DNA of 64,000 nt from Rhodanobacter sp. ANJX3 (GTDB taxonomy: Bacteria > Pseudomonadota > Gammaproteobacteria > Xanthomonadales > Rhodanobacteraceae), in the NCBI RefSeq assembly GCF_014200755.1, contig NZ_JACHCM010000001.1, forward strand, positions 62,001 to 126,000. Reading direction: 5' to 3'. Of the stretch, positions 12,807 to 17,602 are shown piece after piece. A program made the translations under genes and the position numbers. Below the pieces are notes generated by a model, which made no database searches, was not told the DNA's origin, and saw nothing but the letters and a program-made list of their open reading frames with translations. Every line of letters starts with the position of its first letter. Within the stretch, counting starts at the first letter, position 1.

Positions 12807-13736
12807 ATGAGTCCGATACGAGTGGCGGTGATCGGCCTGGGCAAGATCGCCCGCGATCAGCATCTTCCCGCCATCGCAGGCAATGATGCCTTCCATCTCA
12901 CGGCCCTGGTGGATCCAAGTAGCACCTCAAACGTCGAGGGGGCTGCTCGTTTCGATACCCTCGAAGCGCTGTTCGACGATGGCCTTGCGGTCGATGCCGT
13001 GGTTCTTTGCACGCCGCCGCAGGTTCGCTACGAGCTGGCCGCGAAAGCGCTGGCGCGGGGCGCGCACGTCTTTCTCGAAAAACCTCCGGGCGCGACGCTG
13101 GCCGAAGTGGCGGCACTGGAAGAGCAGGCCAAGATCAGTGGCTTTACCCTGTTCGCCGGCTGGCACTCGCGTTACGCCGCCGGTGTGGAGCGCGCGCGCG
13201 CGTGGCTGGCCGATCGGCGTATCGAGCGCGTGTCGATCATCTGGCGCGAGGACGTTCGCGTGTGGCATCCGGGACAGACGTGGATCTGGGAACCGGGTGG
13301 TCTGGGCGTGTTCGACCCCGGCATCAATGCATTGTCTATCGCCACGCGTATCCTGCCGCGCGCGTTCTTTCTGCGCTCCGCCGTCCTTTCGACACCGTCC
13401 AATCGCGCGGCGCCGATCGCCGCCGAAATGACGTTCACGGATACCGCAGGCGTCGAGATAGCGATGGATCTGGACTGGCGCCAGACCGGCCCGCAAAGTT
13501 GGGACATCGTGGTCGAGACCGATGCCGGCACGTTGAAACTCGCCAACGGCGGCGCGGTTCTGGAGCTGCCAAGTGGCGTCGAGCGCGCTGAGGATCGTGA
13601 GTACGCCGGGTTATATGCGCACTTTGCGGCGCTGATCCAGAACGGTCGTAGCGATGTGGATACGGCTCCGCTGCGCCTGGTGGCCGACGCATTTCTGCTC
13701 GGGCATCGCAAAACCGTCGAGGCGTTTGACGACTGA
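12807..13736 (+). CDS. L-arabinose / D-galactose 1-dehydrogenase (Gfo/Idh family)
   Basis: Oxidises C1 of an aldopyranose to the lactone with NAD(P)+, starting the non-phosphorylative route. 309 aa, as in Azospirillum L-arabinose 1-dehydrogenase, with the same landmarks: VIGLGKIARDQHLPAI (Rossmann fold), CTPPQVRYELA, HVFLEKPPGATLAEV (catalytic Lys), FAGWHSR, WREDVRVWHPGQTWIWEPG and GLGVFDPGINALS. Starts 1 nt after the gguC stop, so it is translationally linked. No lactonase gene is adjacent. Substrate preference between arabinose, galactose and xylose cannot be read from sequence. Confidence 0.9.
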   Translation: MSPIRVAVIGLGKIARDQHLPAIAGNDAFHLTALVDPSSTSNVEGAARFDTLEALFDDGLAVDAVVLCTPPQVRYELAAKALARGAHVFLEKPPGATLAEVAALEEQAKISGFTLFAGWHSRYAAGVERARAWLADRRIERVSIIWREDVRVWHPGQTWIWEPGGLGVFDPGINALSIATRILPRAFFLRSAVLSTPSNRAAPIAAEMTFTDTAGVEIAMDLDWRQTGPQSWDIVVETDAGTLKLANGGAVLELPSGVERAEDREYAGLYAHFAALIQNGRSDVDTAPLRLVADAFLLGHRKTVEAFDD

Positions 13737-13896
13737 TGTATCCCGGGCCAGTGCTTTAGGCTGCGCGCCGTCCGGTTAGCCCGTCATTTCGCACCAAACC
13801 ATGGCGCTGGCCGAGCGCTGAGGCCAAGCCGGCAGCGCTGACCGCCGGTTGTCGTCTGCTATTATGGTGGGTCGAAAAACCGGTAAGAGCGAACCC

Positions 13897-15022
13897 ATGA
13901 TCGAAACCAATCCCATCCTCGCGCAGATTGCGGACCTCAGCGGCCGCGTCGAGTCGCTTCGGGGGTATCTTTGACTACGCCACTAAGCGTGAGCGTCTCG
14001 AAGAAGTAACCCGCGAACTGGAGAGCCCCACCATCTGGGATGACCCGGCGCGCGCGCAGGAGCTGGGCCGCGAACGCGCCCGCCTGGACGATATCGTCAG
14101 CGGCATCGATAGCCTCACCGCCGGTCTCACCGATGCCGGTGAACTGCTGGAGATGGCCATTGCCGACGGCGACGAGGAAACCGCACAGTCGGTCGTGACC
14201 GACGTGGCGCGACTCGATGGACAGATCAGCAAGCTGGAATTTCAGCGCATGTTTTCCGGCAAGATGGACGCGACCAACGCCTTCGTCGATATCCAGGCTG
14301 GCGCCGGCGGCACCGAGGCGCAGGACTGGGCCGAAATGTTGCTGCGCATGTACCTGCGCTGGTGCGAATCGCGCGGCTGGCAGACCGAGCTGATGGAAGT
14401 CTCCGGCGGCGACGTGGCCGGCATCAAATCCGCCACCTTCCGCGTGGAAGGCGATTACGCTTACGGCTGGCTGAAAACCGAGATCGGCGTGCATCGCCTG
14501 GTGCGCAAGTCGCCGTTCGATTCGGACAATCGCCGCCACACCAGTTTTACCTCGGTCTTCGTTTCGCCCGAAGTCGATGACGACATCGATATCGATATCA
14601 ATCCGGCCGACCTGAAGACGGACGTCTACCGCTCCTCCGGCGCCGGTGGTCAGCACGTCAACAAAACCGAATCGGCGGTGCGCATCACGCATATTCCGAC
14701 CAATACGGTCGTGGCCTGCCAGACCGGCCGCAGCCAGCACGCCAACCGCGCCACCGCGATGAAGATGCTGGCCGCCAAGCTGTACGAGCTGGAAGTGCAA
14801 AAGCGCAACGTCGAGCGTGATGCCTTGGAAGCAACCAAGTCCGACATCGGCTGGGGCAGCCAGATCCGTAATTACGTGCTCGACCAGAGCCGCATCAAGG
14901 ATTTGCGCACCGGTATCGAGCGCACCGACACGCAGAAGGTGCTCGACGGTGACCTTGATGAGTTCATTGAGGCGAGTTTGAAGTCCGGCTTGGAAGCGGG
15001 CTCCAAGCGCAGTGACGCATAA
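13897..15022 (+). CDS. prfB: Peptide chain release factor 2, with programmed +1 frameshift
   Basis: Recognises UGA and UAA stops and triggers peptide release. The first frame (13897-13974) encodes 25 residues up to LRGYL and stops at TGA 13972-13974. The sequence gggggtatctttgac is the classic prfB site: an internal Shine-Dalgarno-like run, CUU UGA C and a +1 shift, continuing in frame from GAC 13973. The product is 374 aa. [16 protein letters not shown] contains the GGQ motif. This is autoregulation, not a broken gene. An ORF called only from 13928 would misrepresent the N-terminus. Confidence 0.97.
13957..13975 (+). promoter_or_regulatory. prfB +1 recoding site
   Basis: A G-rich anti-SD-pairing run (cggggg) is spaced 4 nt from the slippery CTT-TGA-C at 13969-13975. 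When RF2 is low the ribosome pauses at UGA and slips forward one base. Confidence 0.95.
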
Positions 15023-15035
15023 TGTCGCGGCGAGT

Positions 15036-15063
15036 AGGGGCGAAGGATGAGTAGCGAGGGCGC
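15036..15063 (+). repeat. Left arm of inverted repeat bracketing the four-helix-bundle gene
   Basis: 28 nt, matching the reverse complement of 15444-15471 at 26 of 28 positions (mismatches at the 9th and 13th bases). It contains the ribosome-binding site and the first codons of the enclosed gene, whose ATG is at 15047. Confidence 0.9.
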
Positions 15064-15442
15064 GACGATCCGGTCATATCGCGATCTGGTGGCTTGGCAG
15101 CAGGCGATGCGGCTGGTGGAATCGGTCTACGCCCTGGTTTCGTTGTTGCCGGCGGACGAGCGGTTTGGACTGGCATCCCAGCTTCGCCGATCGGCGGTCT
15201 CGATACCTTCCAACATTGCCGAAGGGCATGCGCGTGAGTCGACAAAGGAGTTCATTCGCTACATCGCTATCGCTCGAGGTTCACTGGCTGAACTGGAAAC
15301 CCAGCTTGAGCTTATGTCGCGTCTGAAAATGACCGAAGCTGGGCAGTTGGATCAGACTCTTTCTTGCTGTGATGAGCTAGGTCGTATTCTTCGGGGACTG
15401 CGTAAATCCCTGGACAACAAACTTGAGGCGGCGCATCAGTGA
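15047..15442 (+). CDS. Four-helix-bundle protein (23S rRNA intervening-sequence protein family)
   Basis: 131 aa, helical, with the family pattern YRDLVAWQQAMRLV, YALVSLLPADERFGLASQLRR, SAVSIPSNIAEGHAR, EFIRYIAIARGSLAELETQLEL. Relatives are encoded in intervening sequences of 23S rRNA genes and as accessory proteins (Avd) of diversity-generating retroelements; basic bundles of this sort can bind nucleic acid. Here it stands between prfB and lysS, and both ends are fitted into an inverted repeat: the start codon is inside the left arm and the stop codon ends 1 nt before the right arm. No rRNA, reverse transcriptase or transposase is nearby. Function unknown. Confidence 0.88.
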   Translation: MSSEGATIRSYRDLVAWQQAMRLVESVYALVSLLPADERFGLASQLRRSAVSIPSNIAEGHARESTKEFIRYIAIARGSLAELETQLELMSRLKMTEAGQLDQTLSCCDELGRILRGLRKSLDNKLEAAHQ

Positions 15443-15443
15443 T

Positions 15444-15471
15444 GCGCCCTCGCTACTCGTCCCTCGCCCCT
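15444..15471 (+). repeat. Right arm of inverted repeat bracketing the four-helix-bundle gene
   Basis: Reverse complement of 15036-15063 with 2 mismatches. It follows the stop codon (15440-15442) by one base. The whole bracketed unit, 15036-15471, is 436 bp. No target-site duplication is visible at its edges. Confidence 0.9.
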
Positions 15472-15472
15472 T

Positions 15473-15498
15473 TCTGAAATCCCGATCTGAAATCCCGA
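15473..15498 (+). repeat. 13-bp tandem duplication in front of lysS
   Basis: TCTGAAATCCCGA occurs twice in direct succession (15473-15485, 15486-15498), just after the right inverted-repeat arm and ending one base before the lysS start codon. Confidence 0.9.
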
Positions 15499-15499
15499 A

Positions 15500-17026
15500 A
15501 TGACCGATCAAATAACTGACCCCGCCGAGCCAATCGTCGACGAAAACCGCCTCATCGCCGAGCGTCGCGAGAAACTGACCGCGCTGCGCGGGCAGGGCAT
15601 CGCGTTTCCGAACGACTTCAAGATCGACAGCTTTACCGGCGACCTGCAAACCGAGTTCGCCGACAAGGACGTTCAGACGGCCGAAGTGATCGAGGCGGCG
15701 GCGCGGCGGGTGAAGGTGGCCGGTCGCATCGTGCTCAAGCGCGTGCAAGGCAAAGTCAGCTTTGTGCAGCTGCAGGATTACACCGGGCGCATCCAGCTGT
15801 TCATCCATCAGGGCACGGTGGGCGACGCATACGAGGCGTTCAAGGGTTGGGACGTCGGCGACATCATCGGCGCCGAAGGTGTGCTGATGCGCACCAAGAC
15901 CGGCGAGCTGTCCGTACGTGCCGACAGCCTGCGTCTGCTGACCAAGAGCCTGCGTCCGCTGCCGGACAAGTTTCACGGCCTGGCCGACGTGGAGCAGCGT
16001 TACCGCCAGCGCTATGTCGACTTGATCGTGACGGAAGAGGCGCGGCGTACGTTCGTCACGCGCTCAAAGATCATCGGCTTCATGCGCCAGTGGCTGGAAG
16101 CGCCGCCGCGTCGCTTCATGGAAGTCGAAACGCCGATGATGCACGTGATTCCCGGCGGCGCCACGGCCAAGCCGTTCATCACGCATCACAATGCGCTGGA
16201 CATGGACCTGTACTTGCGCGTGGCGCCGGAGCTGTATCTGAAGCGACTGGTCGTCGGCGGCTTCGATCGGGTATACGAGATCAACCGCAATTTCCGCAAC
16301 GAGGGCGTGTCGACCCGGCACAATCCCGAGTTCACCATGCTGGAGCTGTATCAGGCCTATGCCACCTACCATGAGATCATGGACATCACCGAATCGGTGA
16401 TCCGCGATACGGCGCAGAGCGTGCTCGGCACGACGCAGCTGACTTGGGACGGCGCCGAGATCGACGTCGGCCCGGCCTTCCGCCGCTGGCGCATGGAAGA
16501 CGCCGTGCTGGAGCACAACCCCGAGATCAAGCGCGAAGAGCTACGCGATCGCGACGCCATGGCGGCACACGCCGCACGCCTGAAAGTGCAGGTCAAACCG
16601 GGTTACGGCTGGGGCAAGCTGCTGCTGGAGATCTTCGAGAAGACGGTCGAGCACACCCTCATCCAGCCGACCTTCATCACCGATCACCCGGTCGAGGTGT
16701 CGCCGCTGGCGCGCGAGAGCGATACCGACAAGGGCATCACCGATCGCTTCGAGCTGTTCGTCAACGGCAAGGAGCTGGCGAATGGTTTTTCCGAGTTGAA
16801 CGACCCGGAAGATCAGGCCGCGCGCTTCCAGGCGCAGGTCGACGCCAAGGATTCCGGCGACGACGAGGCCATGCACTTCGATGCCGACTATATCCGCGCC
16901 CTGGAAGTCGGCTTGCCGCCCACCGGCGGCCTGGGCATCGGCATCGATCGACTCGTGATGCTGCTGACCGGATCGGCGTCGATCCGCGACGTGCTGCTGT
17001 TCCCCTATATGCGCCCGGAGGCCTGA
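15500..17026 (+). CDS. lysS: Lysyl-tRNA synthetase, class II
   Basis: Charges tRNA-Lys. 508 aa. N-terminal OB-fold anticodon domain at about 60-165 ([20 protein letters not shown]), then a class II catalytic core: motif 2 [18 protein letters not shown] and motif 3 [15 protein letters not shown]. No clear Shine-Dalgarno sequence precedes the ATG; the 13-bp tandem repeat takes its place. The start is still supported by the normal length. Followed at 1 nt by the YciI gene, so these small genes are probably cotranscribed. Confidence 0.96.
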
Positions 17027-17027
17027 G

Positions 17028-17333
17028 ATGTGGTTTGCCATCGTTGCCAATGACGTCCCCCATTCGCTTGAAGCTCGCGTCGCCAATCGGCCGCCGCATC
17101 TGGCGCGGCTGCAGCAGATGAACGACGAAGGCCGTTTACTTCTGGCTGGCCCGTTTCCGGCGATCGCCTCGGAAGATCCGGGCCCTGCCGGCTTTACCGG
17201 CAGCCTGATCGTCGCGGAATTCGCTTCGCTGGAAGAAGCCGAGAGCTGGGCCAAGGCCGATCCCTATATGGCCGCCGGCGTCTACGCTGACGTCAAAGTG
17301 CGGCCGTTCCGCAAGACGCTGCCCAGCGCGTGA
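17028..17333 (+). CDS. YciI family protein
   Basis: 101 aa dimeric ferredoxin-like fold family with the usual stretches [28 protein letters not shown] (abridged), [36 protein letters not shown]. Cellular role poorly known; a conserved His-Asp pair suggests an enzyme or binding function. Begins 1 nt after lysS and overlaps the longest form of the next gene by 4 nt. Confidence 0.85.
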
Positions 17334-17347
17334 GCGGCGCGCCAGCC

Positions 17348-17602
17348 ATGACTCCAATGCTGGATGAAATCCGCCGCCGCCTGGAGGTCGCCTTTGCGCC
17401 GACCGCGCTCGAAGTGCTGGACGAGGGCTACAAGCACGCGTCGCACGGCAACGCCGGCAAGGGGCATTTCCATGTGCGCATCGTCAGCGCGGCCTTCGCC
17501 GGCAAGCTGCCGCTGCAGCGTCACCGTATGGTTTATGCGGCGATGGAGGGGTTGATGGATAACGGCATCCACGCGCTTTCGATCGATGCTGGTGATAAAT
17601 AG
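17348..17602 (+). CDS. BolA family protein
   Basis: 84 aa from ATG 17348, or 90 aa from the GTG at 17330, which overlaps the preceding stop. Characteristic BolA pattern: EIRRRLEVAFAPTALEVLDEG, KGHFHVRIVSAAFAGKLPLQRHRMVY, and an HALSIDA end. BolA proteins pair with monothiol glutaredoxins in Fe-S handling or act as regulators. No glutaredoxin gene is adjacent. It ends a run lysS-yciI-bolA. Confidence 0.88.
   Translation: MTPMLDEIRRRLEVAFAPTALEVLDEGYKHASHGNAGKGHFHVRIVSAAFAGKLPLQRHRMVYAAMEGLMDNGIHALSIDAGDK

Follow-up and report, generated by a model that had tools for sequence, protein, structure and literature searches.

The intervening sequence (IVS) in the 23S rRNA of Coxiella is, according to the available text of the report on it (PMC4990558), 428 nt long, has a 28-bp terminal stem and contains tandem heptamers upstream of the S23p open reading frame (ORF). 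The same text describes this IVS as acquired horizontally and then inherited vertically, and as removed by RNase III, with the S23 protein apparently not made in vivo, and calls the function and origin of 23S rRNA IVS unclear.

Heptamer repeats have also been reported in other bacteria, with no means of spread given in the available sections (PMC4692102, PMC4679880). In Xanthomonas and Nostoc, these are intergenic 7-nt repeats of the form GGGNATC; according to the accessible part of PMC4692102, two Xanthomonas genomes contain 70 and 75 inverted pairs in convergent orientation, four units being preferred; the Xanthomonas heptamers lie in stable regions and were judged not to be associated with mobile elements, and in Nostoc few heptamers are paired and none lies on the plasmids of the strain studied. 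In the same part, Rehm et al. 2015 describe the heptamers as G-quadruplex-forming and not generally tied to mobile elements. In a Beggiatoaceae genome, the sets of TAACTGA heptamers comprise 169 direct ones and one inverted one (PMC4679880, available text). Both reports propose quadruplexes or regulator binding, the second also considers carriage by a mobile element and names none, and the available text of neither mentions S23 or a helix bundle. Except for PMC4990558, no paper linking the 23S_rRNA_IVP (hereafter IVP) protein to heptamer repeats was found in the open-licence PMC literature, as far as its accessible text extends; PMC6344855, PMC4853749, PMC3542288 and PMC11270868 treat heptamers or rRNA insertions and, in the sections available, do not link the heptamers to the IVP protein.

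The unit between prfB and lysS

The window, that is, the whole stretch of 64,000 nt of Rhodanobacter sp. ANJX3 that was analysed, contains between prfB and lysS a unit of 436 bp (15036..15471) with the following features (G and L numbers below are our handles for genomes and loci):

13897..15022, plus strand: prfB, upstream neighbour, given as context (start and frameshift sequence judged by eye)
15036..15063, plus strand: left arm, G-rich heptamer repeat AGGGGCGAAGGATGAGTAGCGAGGGCGC; overlaps the start codon; inverted repeat 26/28, with dispersed copies
15047..15442, plus strand: IVP gene for a 131-aa four-helix-bundle protein; PF05635 / TIGR02436; model with pLDDT 94 and four helices; Foldseek match 2gsc
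15444..15471, minus strand: right arm, heptamer repeat of the left arm; exact match to the search pattern at 15447-15471
15500..17026, plus strand: lysS, downstream neighbour, given as context

The arms, which are separated by 380 nt, match each other in inverted orientation at 26 of 28 positions (93% complementarity over 28 nt in the inverted-repeat search) and consist of tandem heptamers, the pyrimidine strand reading CTCGCTA CTCGTCC CTCGCCC CT. The ATG at 15047 falls within the left arm, the stop codon ends one base short of the right arm, and the ORF list contains no second gene between the arms. No Rfam family reaches its gathering score within 13500-17500, and a search of the whole window with ARAGORN reveals neither a tRNA nor a tmRNA. 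An earlier note on this DNA, made from the sequence alone, had described the arms and the position of the gene in the same way, had seen no other gene and no rRNA at the unit and had taken the product for a four-helix-bundle protein, and in all these respects the analysis bears it out. The inverted-repeat score of the unit is 23.0; for comparison, 6.8% of 412 cross-locus pairs reach 16. The unit transcript is predicted to fold with the arms paired (minimum free energy -206.9 kcal/mol, z -4.8, none of 100 shuffles as good). An RNA stem with its own putative binding protein, the other proposal of the earlier note, would be compatible with the data.

As far as the available text of PMC4990558 allows the comparison, the unit resembles the Coxiella IVS in the family name of the protein and in dimensions (a 28-bp stem and 428 nt in the IVS, 28-bp arms and 436 bp here), and it shares with 23S IVS the complementary ends around an IVP ORF; however, the IVS lies inside an rRNA gene and the window unit between protein genes. 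The 23S IVS and the window unit share their anatomy, and the window unit is not an rRNA IVS. The 23S IVS is the nearest known kind, and if that kind were defined by anatomy alone, the window unit would count as its variant. At locus L135 in G441, an IVP gene between 23S rRNA motifs has heptamer arms with an inverted-repeat score of 23. Because an IVP gene inside a 23S gene has the same arms, the 23S intervening sequences look like the rRNA-inserted form of heptad-armed elements.

Two features of the neighbourhood were noticed in passing. The prfB gene contains, by eye, an RF2-type programmed frameshift sequence, GGGGGTATCTTTGAC, at 13960-13979. A 13-bp imperfect tandem direct repeat, CCCTTTCTGAAAT / CCCGATCTGAAAT, at 15468-15493 begins within the final bases of the right arm and extends over part of the spacer before lysS.

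The encoded protein

A profile search with the 131-aa protein yields 126.2 bits for PF05635 (23S_rRNA_IVP; cut-off 33.8) and 126.3 bits for TIGR02436 (cut-off 24). The only other match is to Avd of diversity-generating retroelements (DGRs), at 25.5 bits and under the 80-bit cut-off of that profile; no catalytic domain was recognised. The AlphaFold2 model (pLDDT 94) has four helices and superimposes on 2gsc (XCC0516) with an rmsd of 0.7 to 0.9 A in Foldseek; 2gsc and 2rld are matched at E <= 0.001, and Avd alone (4dwl) and the DGR ribonucleoprotein with reverse transcriptase (8ub7) at E 0.006 each. The earlier note had related the protein to those of 23S rRNA IVS and of DGRs: the first relationship holds, with the IVP profile well above its cut-off, and the second extends to a similar fold and a weak profile match that stays below the cut-off. 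Unlike a DGR, moreover, the locus has no neighbouring reverse transcriptase, the neighbours being prfB and lysS.

The structures 2gsc and 2rld contain five chains each, and we take these proteins and Avd to be pentamers; by homology with 2gsc and Avd, the window protein is probably pentameric as well. It is not basic (pI 6.74, charge -0.8). One IVP gene was found in the Rhodanobacter genome, and the nearest sampled relatives of its product are those of L085, L089 and L092 (67 to 69% identity).

Heptamer arms flank IVP genes in many phyla

In Pseudomonadota, 61 of 70 usable IVP loci (74 loci from genus, family and phylum searches, less four incomplete ones) have flanking inverted repeats scoring at least 14, compared to 9.2% of 412 cross-locus pairs, and the period of 7, with its multiple 14, stands alone in these flanks. 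A second set, which consists of the best 80 of 590 confirmed loci from many phyla (two were dropped), gives 61 of 78 usable loci with a score of at least 14 against 2.7% of 766 mismatched cross-locus pairs; its single archaeal locus, from a MAG, scores below 14. Such inverted flanks surround only 6 of 386 control ORFs at these IVP loci. Pooled, 144 of 189 IVP loci have inverted flanks scoring at least 14, with a median arm of 29 nt, and 45, the archaeal MAG among them, do not. One survey of 134 loci was reduced by 20 with genes at least 92% identical and by three with cut flanks. All six cyanobacterial plasmid IVPs analysed for arms, out of 33 plasmid records with an IVP match, have inverted flanks scoring at least 15; L465, L472, L475, L476 and L480 were viewed at junctions or by eye only.

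The best lag among the 144 armed loci is 7 in 132, 8 in nine and another value in three. The 132 heptad loci share the core T/C-A/C/G-G-G/T-G-A-N (Y-V-G-K-G-A-N), with G at position 3 in 89% and 4.06 bits of information against a mean of 2.99 and a maximum of 3.08 for shuffled heptad positions, related loci being counted at full weight. G exceeds C in the 5' arm of 136 of the 144 loci. From outer arm end to outer arm end, the unit has a median length of 444 nt (83 Pseudomonadota loci). The modal arm length is four heptads, not five, and arm lengths do not support an arrangement of one heptad per subunit of the pentamer. Arms of period 8 occur at nine IVP loci (L118, L132, L140, L213, L215, L240, L245, L248 and L263), which are scattered on the protein tree (seven changes for nine loci), so that for octads a repeat period set by the protein clade is not supported either.

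The reversed-pattern, cross-pair and control-ORF controls exclude chance matches as the source of the arms. Sequence comparison shows that, across many phyla, IVP genes are as a rule flanked by heptamer arms. They resemble the heptamers of Xanthomonas, Nostoc and Beggiatoaceae, as presented in the available parts of PMC4692102 and PMC4679880, in being 7-nt units in intergenic regions, but the Nostoc heptamers are rarely paired and those of Beggiatoaceae form nearly exclusively direct sets, whereas the arms of the unit are inverted. Conceivably, the heptamers could be simple sequence repeats produced by slippage or G-quadruplex effects, with IVP genes among them by accident, as would agree with the description by Rehm et al. 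2015 cited above (PMC4692102, available part); given that they stand inverted around members of a single gene family at 144 of 189 loci, compared to 6 of 386 control ORFs, and the agreement of both arms in type, such an origin appears very improbable indeed.

Three further observations concern individual loci. In plasmid pANA02 of Anabaena sp. 90 (L457), a heptamer-armed IVP unit lies between cas6 and cas4. The control ORFs at L211 1711-2083, L267 373-734 and L269 1844-2210, all near IVP loci, have strong inverted flanks and may be further heptad elements. L143 (G279) seems to carry its element inverted relative to four congeners (L140, L144, L148 and L150), as judged from one G279 flank.

Dispersed arms without the gene

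A 25-nt pattern of the arm, allowing up to three mismatches, has 22 matches in the Rhodanobacter genome (11 on each strand), a count that takes in both arms of the window unit and three overlapping windows of one array, compared to none for the reversed control; within the window it matches only the two arms. A search of the genome with the arm was a check proposed in the earlier note, and neither of the two outcomes that the note named as refuting it is observed: the arm is not unique to the unit, and the repeats do not bracket many unrelated genes, which would have made their association with this gene incidental. With a 28-nt consensus, 48 of 49 short arm pairs in G000, G210, G203, G123, G096 and G051 are in convergent orientation, their spacers measuring 7 to 219 bp, and the control ORFs so flanked are the six of 386 given above. 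The count of 49 leaves out same-strand plus-plus neighbours, of which one array was seen, and derives from 40 regions chosen from listed matches, partly since both arms were listed. Four G210 pairs have a spacer of the same length, 52 bp. In several genomes, arm copies occur although the genome has no gene of that type (56 in G051, 31 in G203, 25 in G123 and 22 in G096).

Four orthologous spacers, searched in 18 genomes and restricted to spacers readable from both sides, were compared in up to 22 members of the genus. These spacers (recO-era, pheT-pheS, both named by eye, and two others) contain various types of heptad hairpin, palindromic repeats of other kinds, or little sequence at all. On this evidence, the comparison shows dispersed copies turning over at common permissive sites. 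Since one spacer carries type A or type B depending on the species, retyping of copies in place was considered; it was set aside, because other repeats and near-empty spacers at the same sites make permissive hot spots sufficient. General insertion into hairpin loops was rejected as well (11 of 48 flanks score at least 7, with 18% expected).

The G210 copies L311 and L312 lie within a REP-like palindrome, and L314 has similar flanks. This separate palindrome, GGAGCGCACCCTGTGCGCGA, occupies the same spacers as the heptad elements, encloses them in G210 (L311, L312), and is found also in the third compared spacer of G001, G011 and G038.

Correspondence between arms and protein

Protein pairs below 50% identity have an arm similarity of about 0.50, and pairs at 60-70% one of 0.71. 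The arms of L085, L089 and L092 are of the type of the window unit, and since these loci, among the matches listed, are also at prfB-lysS, the likeness may be due to common descent. L088, with a 57% identical protein and the prfB-lysS site (likewise among the matches listed), has different arms. Where IVP units occupy accB-accC, the GGATTC shares of the two arms rise and fall together (rho 0.82 across the 31 usable loci out of 33), and at three orthologous spacers the dispersed elements show the arm variant of the gene (10 of 11 and 8 of 8). All four genomes with type A arms at prfB-lysS have at least nine arm copies, as compared to 7 of 193 others (genomes with at least five copies were entered and the remainder taken as below nine); G076 and G216, which have a unit of another arm type at prfB-lysS, contain 0 and 1 arm copies, respectively. 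Within the genus, carriers of the type B gene have more copies than non-carriers (one-sided p 0.02), and G051, G096, G123, G203 and G028 are non-carriers with many copies. These tests of association treat species and sites as independent despite shared ancestry.

With respect to both dispersal and lineage specificity, the heptad-armed units are similar to REPIN/RAYT systems, in which a gene likewise lies between inverted repeat copies, the repeat is dispersed between genes as gene-less convergent pairs, and the arm type follows the gene lineage. The RAYT (Y1 HUH) tyrosine transposase, however, is absent from the window unit, in which only IVP and Avd models match, and REP sequences are single palindromes whereas the arms of the window unit are tandem heptamers.

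Presence and absence of the unit as a block

Plasmid C of T. variabilis contains a 423-bp insert with GTAAT on both sides. Related plasmids are devoid of the insert, with flanks 97.8 to 98.8% identical, and have a single GTAAT in all four empty plasmids checked (four of the six listed two-piece records near 98% were compared). Scytonema NIES-4073 has this insert too, and pC052_E of Nostoc C052 has an apparent shortened remnant. In Nostoc ATCC 53789, pNsp_a contains a 413-bp insert between TTCTA repeats (L476); L478 and L479, relatives without the insert, have TTTTA at this place. Plasmid pNsp_c contains a 501-bp insert of another IVP between TAATG and TTATG, identical at four of five positions (L480), where L479 is empty and has TAATG once. 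The pNsp_c insert adjoins the pNsp_a site, being located at the next junction of the same gene row, and about 30 bp beside its right end are not arm. In the inserts of 413, 423 and 501 bp, the IVP coding sequence of 366 to 378 bp is the only annotated gene. Clean junctions were not obtained at C052/C057, at the nrd site and at L475/L477, although filled and empty versions were compared. The insertion sites compared are at gene junctions in apparent operons, and take in or adjoin the stop codon of the upstream gene, a position that selection against gene disruption may explain. We infer that the empty state of the plasmids is the older one.

At accB-accC, a site named by eye from an alignment, the flanks of L045 and L042 are 92.8% and 98.1% identical and the genes 62.4%; for L043 and L035 the values are 93.8% and 90.3% for the flanks and 65.9% for the genes, and in the alignment identity breaks at the arms. 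The reverse case is L041 and L037, with genes 96.9% and flanks 81.9% and 91.2% identical. Of the pairs listed, which are those of 20 loci with a right flank at least 88% identical, all but one have a right flank better conserved than the gene, so that fast evolution of the gene explains part of the contrast. Gene and arms appear, from the aligned sequences, to have been swapped as a cassette at this site.

The plasmid comparisons show heptad-armed IVP units to be inserted or missing as a whole; in the three clearest cases, 5-bp direct repeats flank the insert. No general target-duplication signal emerged across IVP loci: direct repeats of at least 5 nt near the arm ends number 16 over 142 loci (two of 144 dropped), against 8.2% expected, in what is a weak test. 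The identical IVP copies of G441 were rejected as evidence of transposition, as they belong to a larger duplication, at least 5.8 kb long, that includes rRNA. Arm-only dispersed copies and 5-bp direct repeats, as seen among heptad-armed units, are not given for the Coxiella IVS in the available text of PMC4990558. Terminal inverted repeats, short direct repeats (in the plasmid cases) and gene-less derivatives are also features of MITEs and insertion sequences; unlike these, the unit contains no transposase that could be found, and its arms vary between lineages.

These data bear on two alternative explanations. Under the first, the units would be inherited, lost and exchanged by homologous recombination through flanks and arms, not transposed, and the arms would act as a domesticated RNA stem that tunes operon expression through cleavage by RNase III or binding of IVP. 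The pairing of the arms in the folded transcript (z -4.8), the placement of units and short pairs between neighbouring genes (prfB-lysS, accB-accC, recO-era and pheT-pheS, the last three named by eye), a position kept in several genera among the matches listed, and the removal of the Coxiella IVS by RNase III (PMC4990558, available text) all agree with such a role, and recombination between like arms could have produced the accB-accC swap. Against it stand the empty sites, in which the 5-bp sequence occurs once, the orthologous spacers that hold different types of element, and the units at unrelated plasmid and chromosomal places, and we consider this explanation decidedly unlikely.

Under the second, an unrelated enzyme, such as a transposase of the DDE or HUH type or a reverse transcriptase of the group II or DGR type, would mobilise the units in trans as passengers, and IVP would be a nucleic-acid-binding accessory, as Avd is for the DGR reverse transcriptase. 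The 5-bp direct repeats would suit a conventional transposase, the unit itself has no catalytic domain, the model resembles both free Avd (4dwl) and Avd within the DGR ribonucleoprotein (8ub7), each at E 0.006, and gene-less copies exist in genomes that lack the gene. One common transposase, however, would not predict lineage-specific arms that track the IVP protein, and a second annotated gene is missing from the three clearest plasmid inserts; on balance, passenger status seems rather unlikely.

Proposed mechanism

Each of the known kinds considered fails a tested defining feature at the window, where there is no rRNA, no RAYT, no transposase, no Avd-level score and no reverse transcriptase. 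The reading that we prefer, with a probability of roughly two in three, is that the unit is a heptad-armed IVP element, that is, a minimal mobile element consisting of two inverted tandem-heptamer arms and one gene of the IVP/Avd kind encoding a four-helix bundle. A minimal mobile element was among the proposals of the earlier note, and the block presence and absence on plasmids with 5-bp repeats, the accB-accC swap and the dispersed arm-only copies lend it support. Weighing against it are the lack of a recognised catalytic domain, the arm copies in genomes that have no gene of that type, the place of the window unit at prfB-lysS in six genomes with no duplication seen, the 45 IVP loci with flanks below 14, the missing general duplication signal, the three plasmid sites that gave no clean junction, the non-basic protein, the modal arm of four heptads, the scattered octads, and the published accounts of direct, unpaired or stable heptamers and of a vertically inherited Coxiella element whose protein is apparently not made.

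In such an element, we infer, the IVP protein itself would drive movement. The IVP pentamer would recognise the G-rich heptamer core of its own arms, most likely in the form of hairpins of the transcript or of single-stranded DNA, and the complex of IVP and arms would promote the insertion of segments bounded by such arms, so that gene-less arm pairs could spread in trans. Strand transfer may depend on an enzyme of the host or on a reverse transcriptase provided in trans; the help of a reverse transcriptase is thinkable given the likeness of IVP to Avd, and none is annotated in the plasmid inserts. On this view, the 23S rRNA intervening sequences would have arisen from elements inserted into rRNA genes.

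More broadly, a four-helix-bundle pentamer could be the only self-encoded mobility factor of mobile elements of about 0.42 kb in many bacterial phyla. It would read heptamer hairpins, insert both its gene and arm-only copies at operon junctions, where 5 bp would be duplicated, and give rise to 23S IVS and to many scattered heptamer repeats. The odds of this extension are lowered by the direct or unpaired heptamers and the Coxiella protein result in the available text of the published reports, and we put it forward tentatively, as somewhat less probable than its converse. If true, it would define a mobile element without a recognisable transposase, recombinase or reverse transcriptase, and the 23S rRNA intervening sequences would join a larger class. 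Some of the 7-letter repeats that lack an explanation in bacterial genomes could stem from heptad-armed elements, and the link of heptamer repeats to a gene family of solved structure (2gsc) provides a testable partner.

The prfB-lysS site across genomes

In a comparison of prfB-lysS spacers, the unit is present in 6 of the 62 genomes examined (G000, G076, G130, G135, G210 and G216), which were chosen partly for carrying the unit or being near carriers. By locus groups among the matches listed, the six carriers span four genera. The remaining spacers, which do not contain the unit, hold a small unrelated ORF or, by eye, a toxin-antitoxin-like pair, or are short (14 to about 100 bp); one of the 62 is partly N. 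No target duplication was seen at the window unit, and no empty counterpart of the window copy at high identity was found among the genomes compared. Together with the presence in 6 of 62 genomes at this site, this suggests that the window copy may now be a long-term resident. By comparison of spacers, the unit seems to be old at prfB-lysS in some lineages and is absent in others, and the window copy is probably resident and vertically inherited.

Many relatives (L052-L080, L278-L293) have, as judged by eye, an unrelated small ORF between prfB and lysS, and L067, L286, L298-L300 and L302 have what by eye seems to be a toxin-antitoxin pair at the same place.
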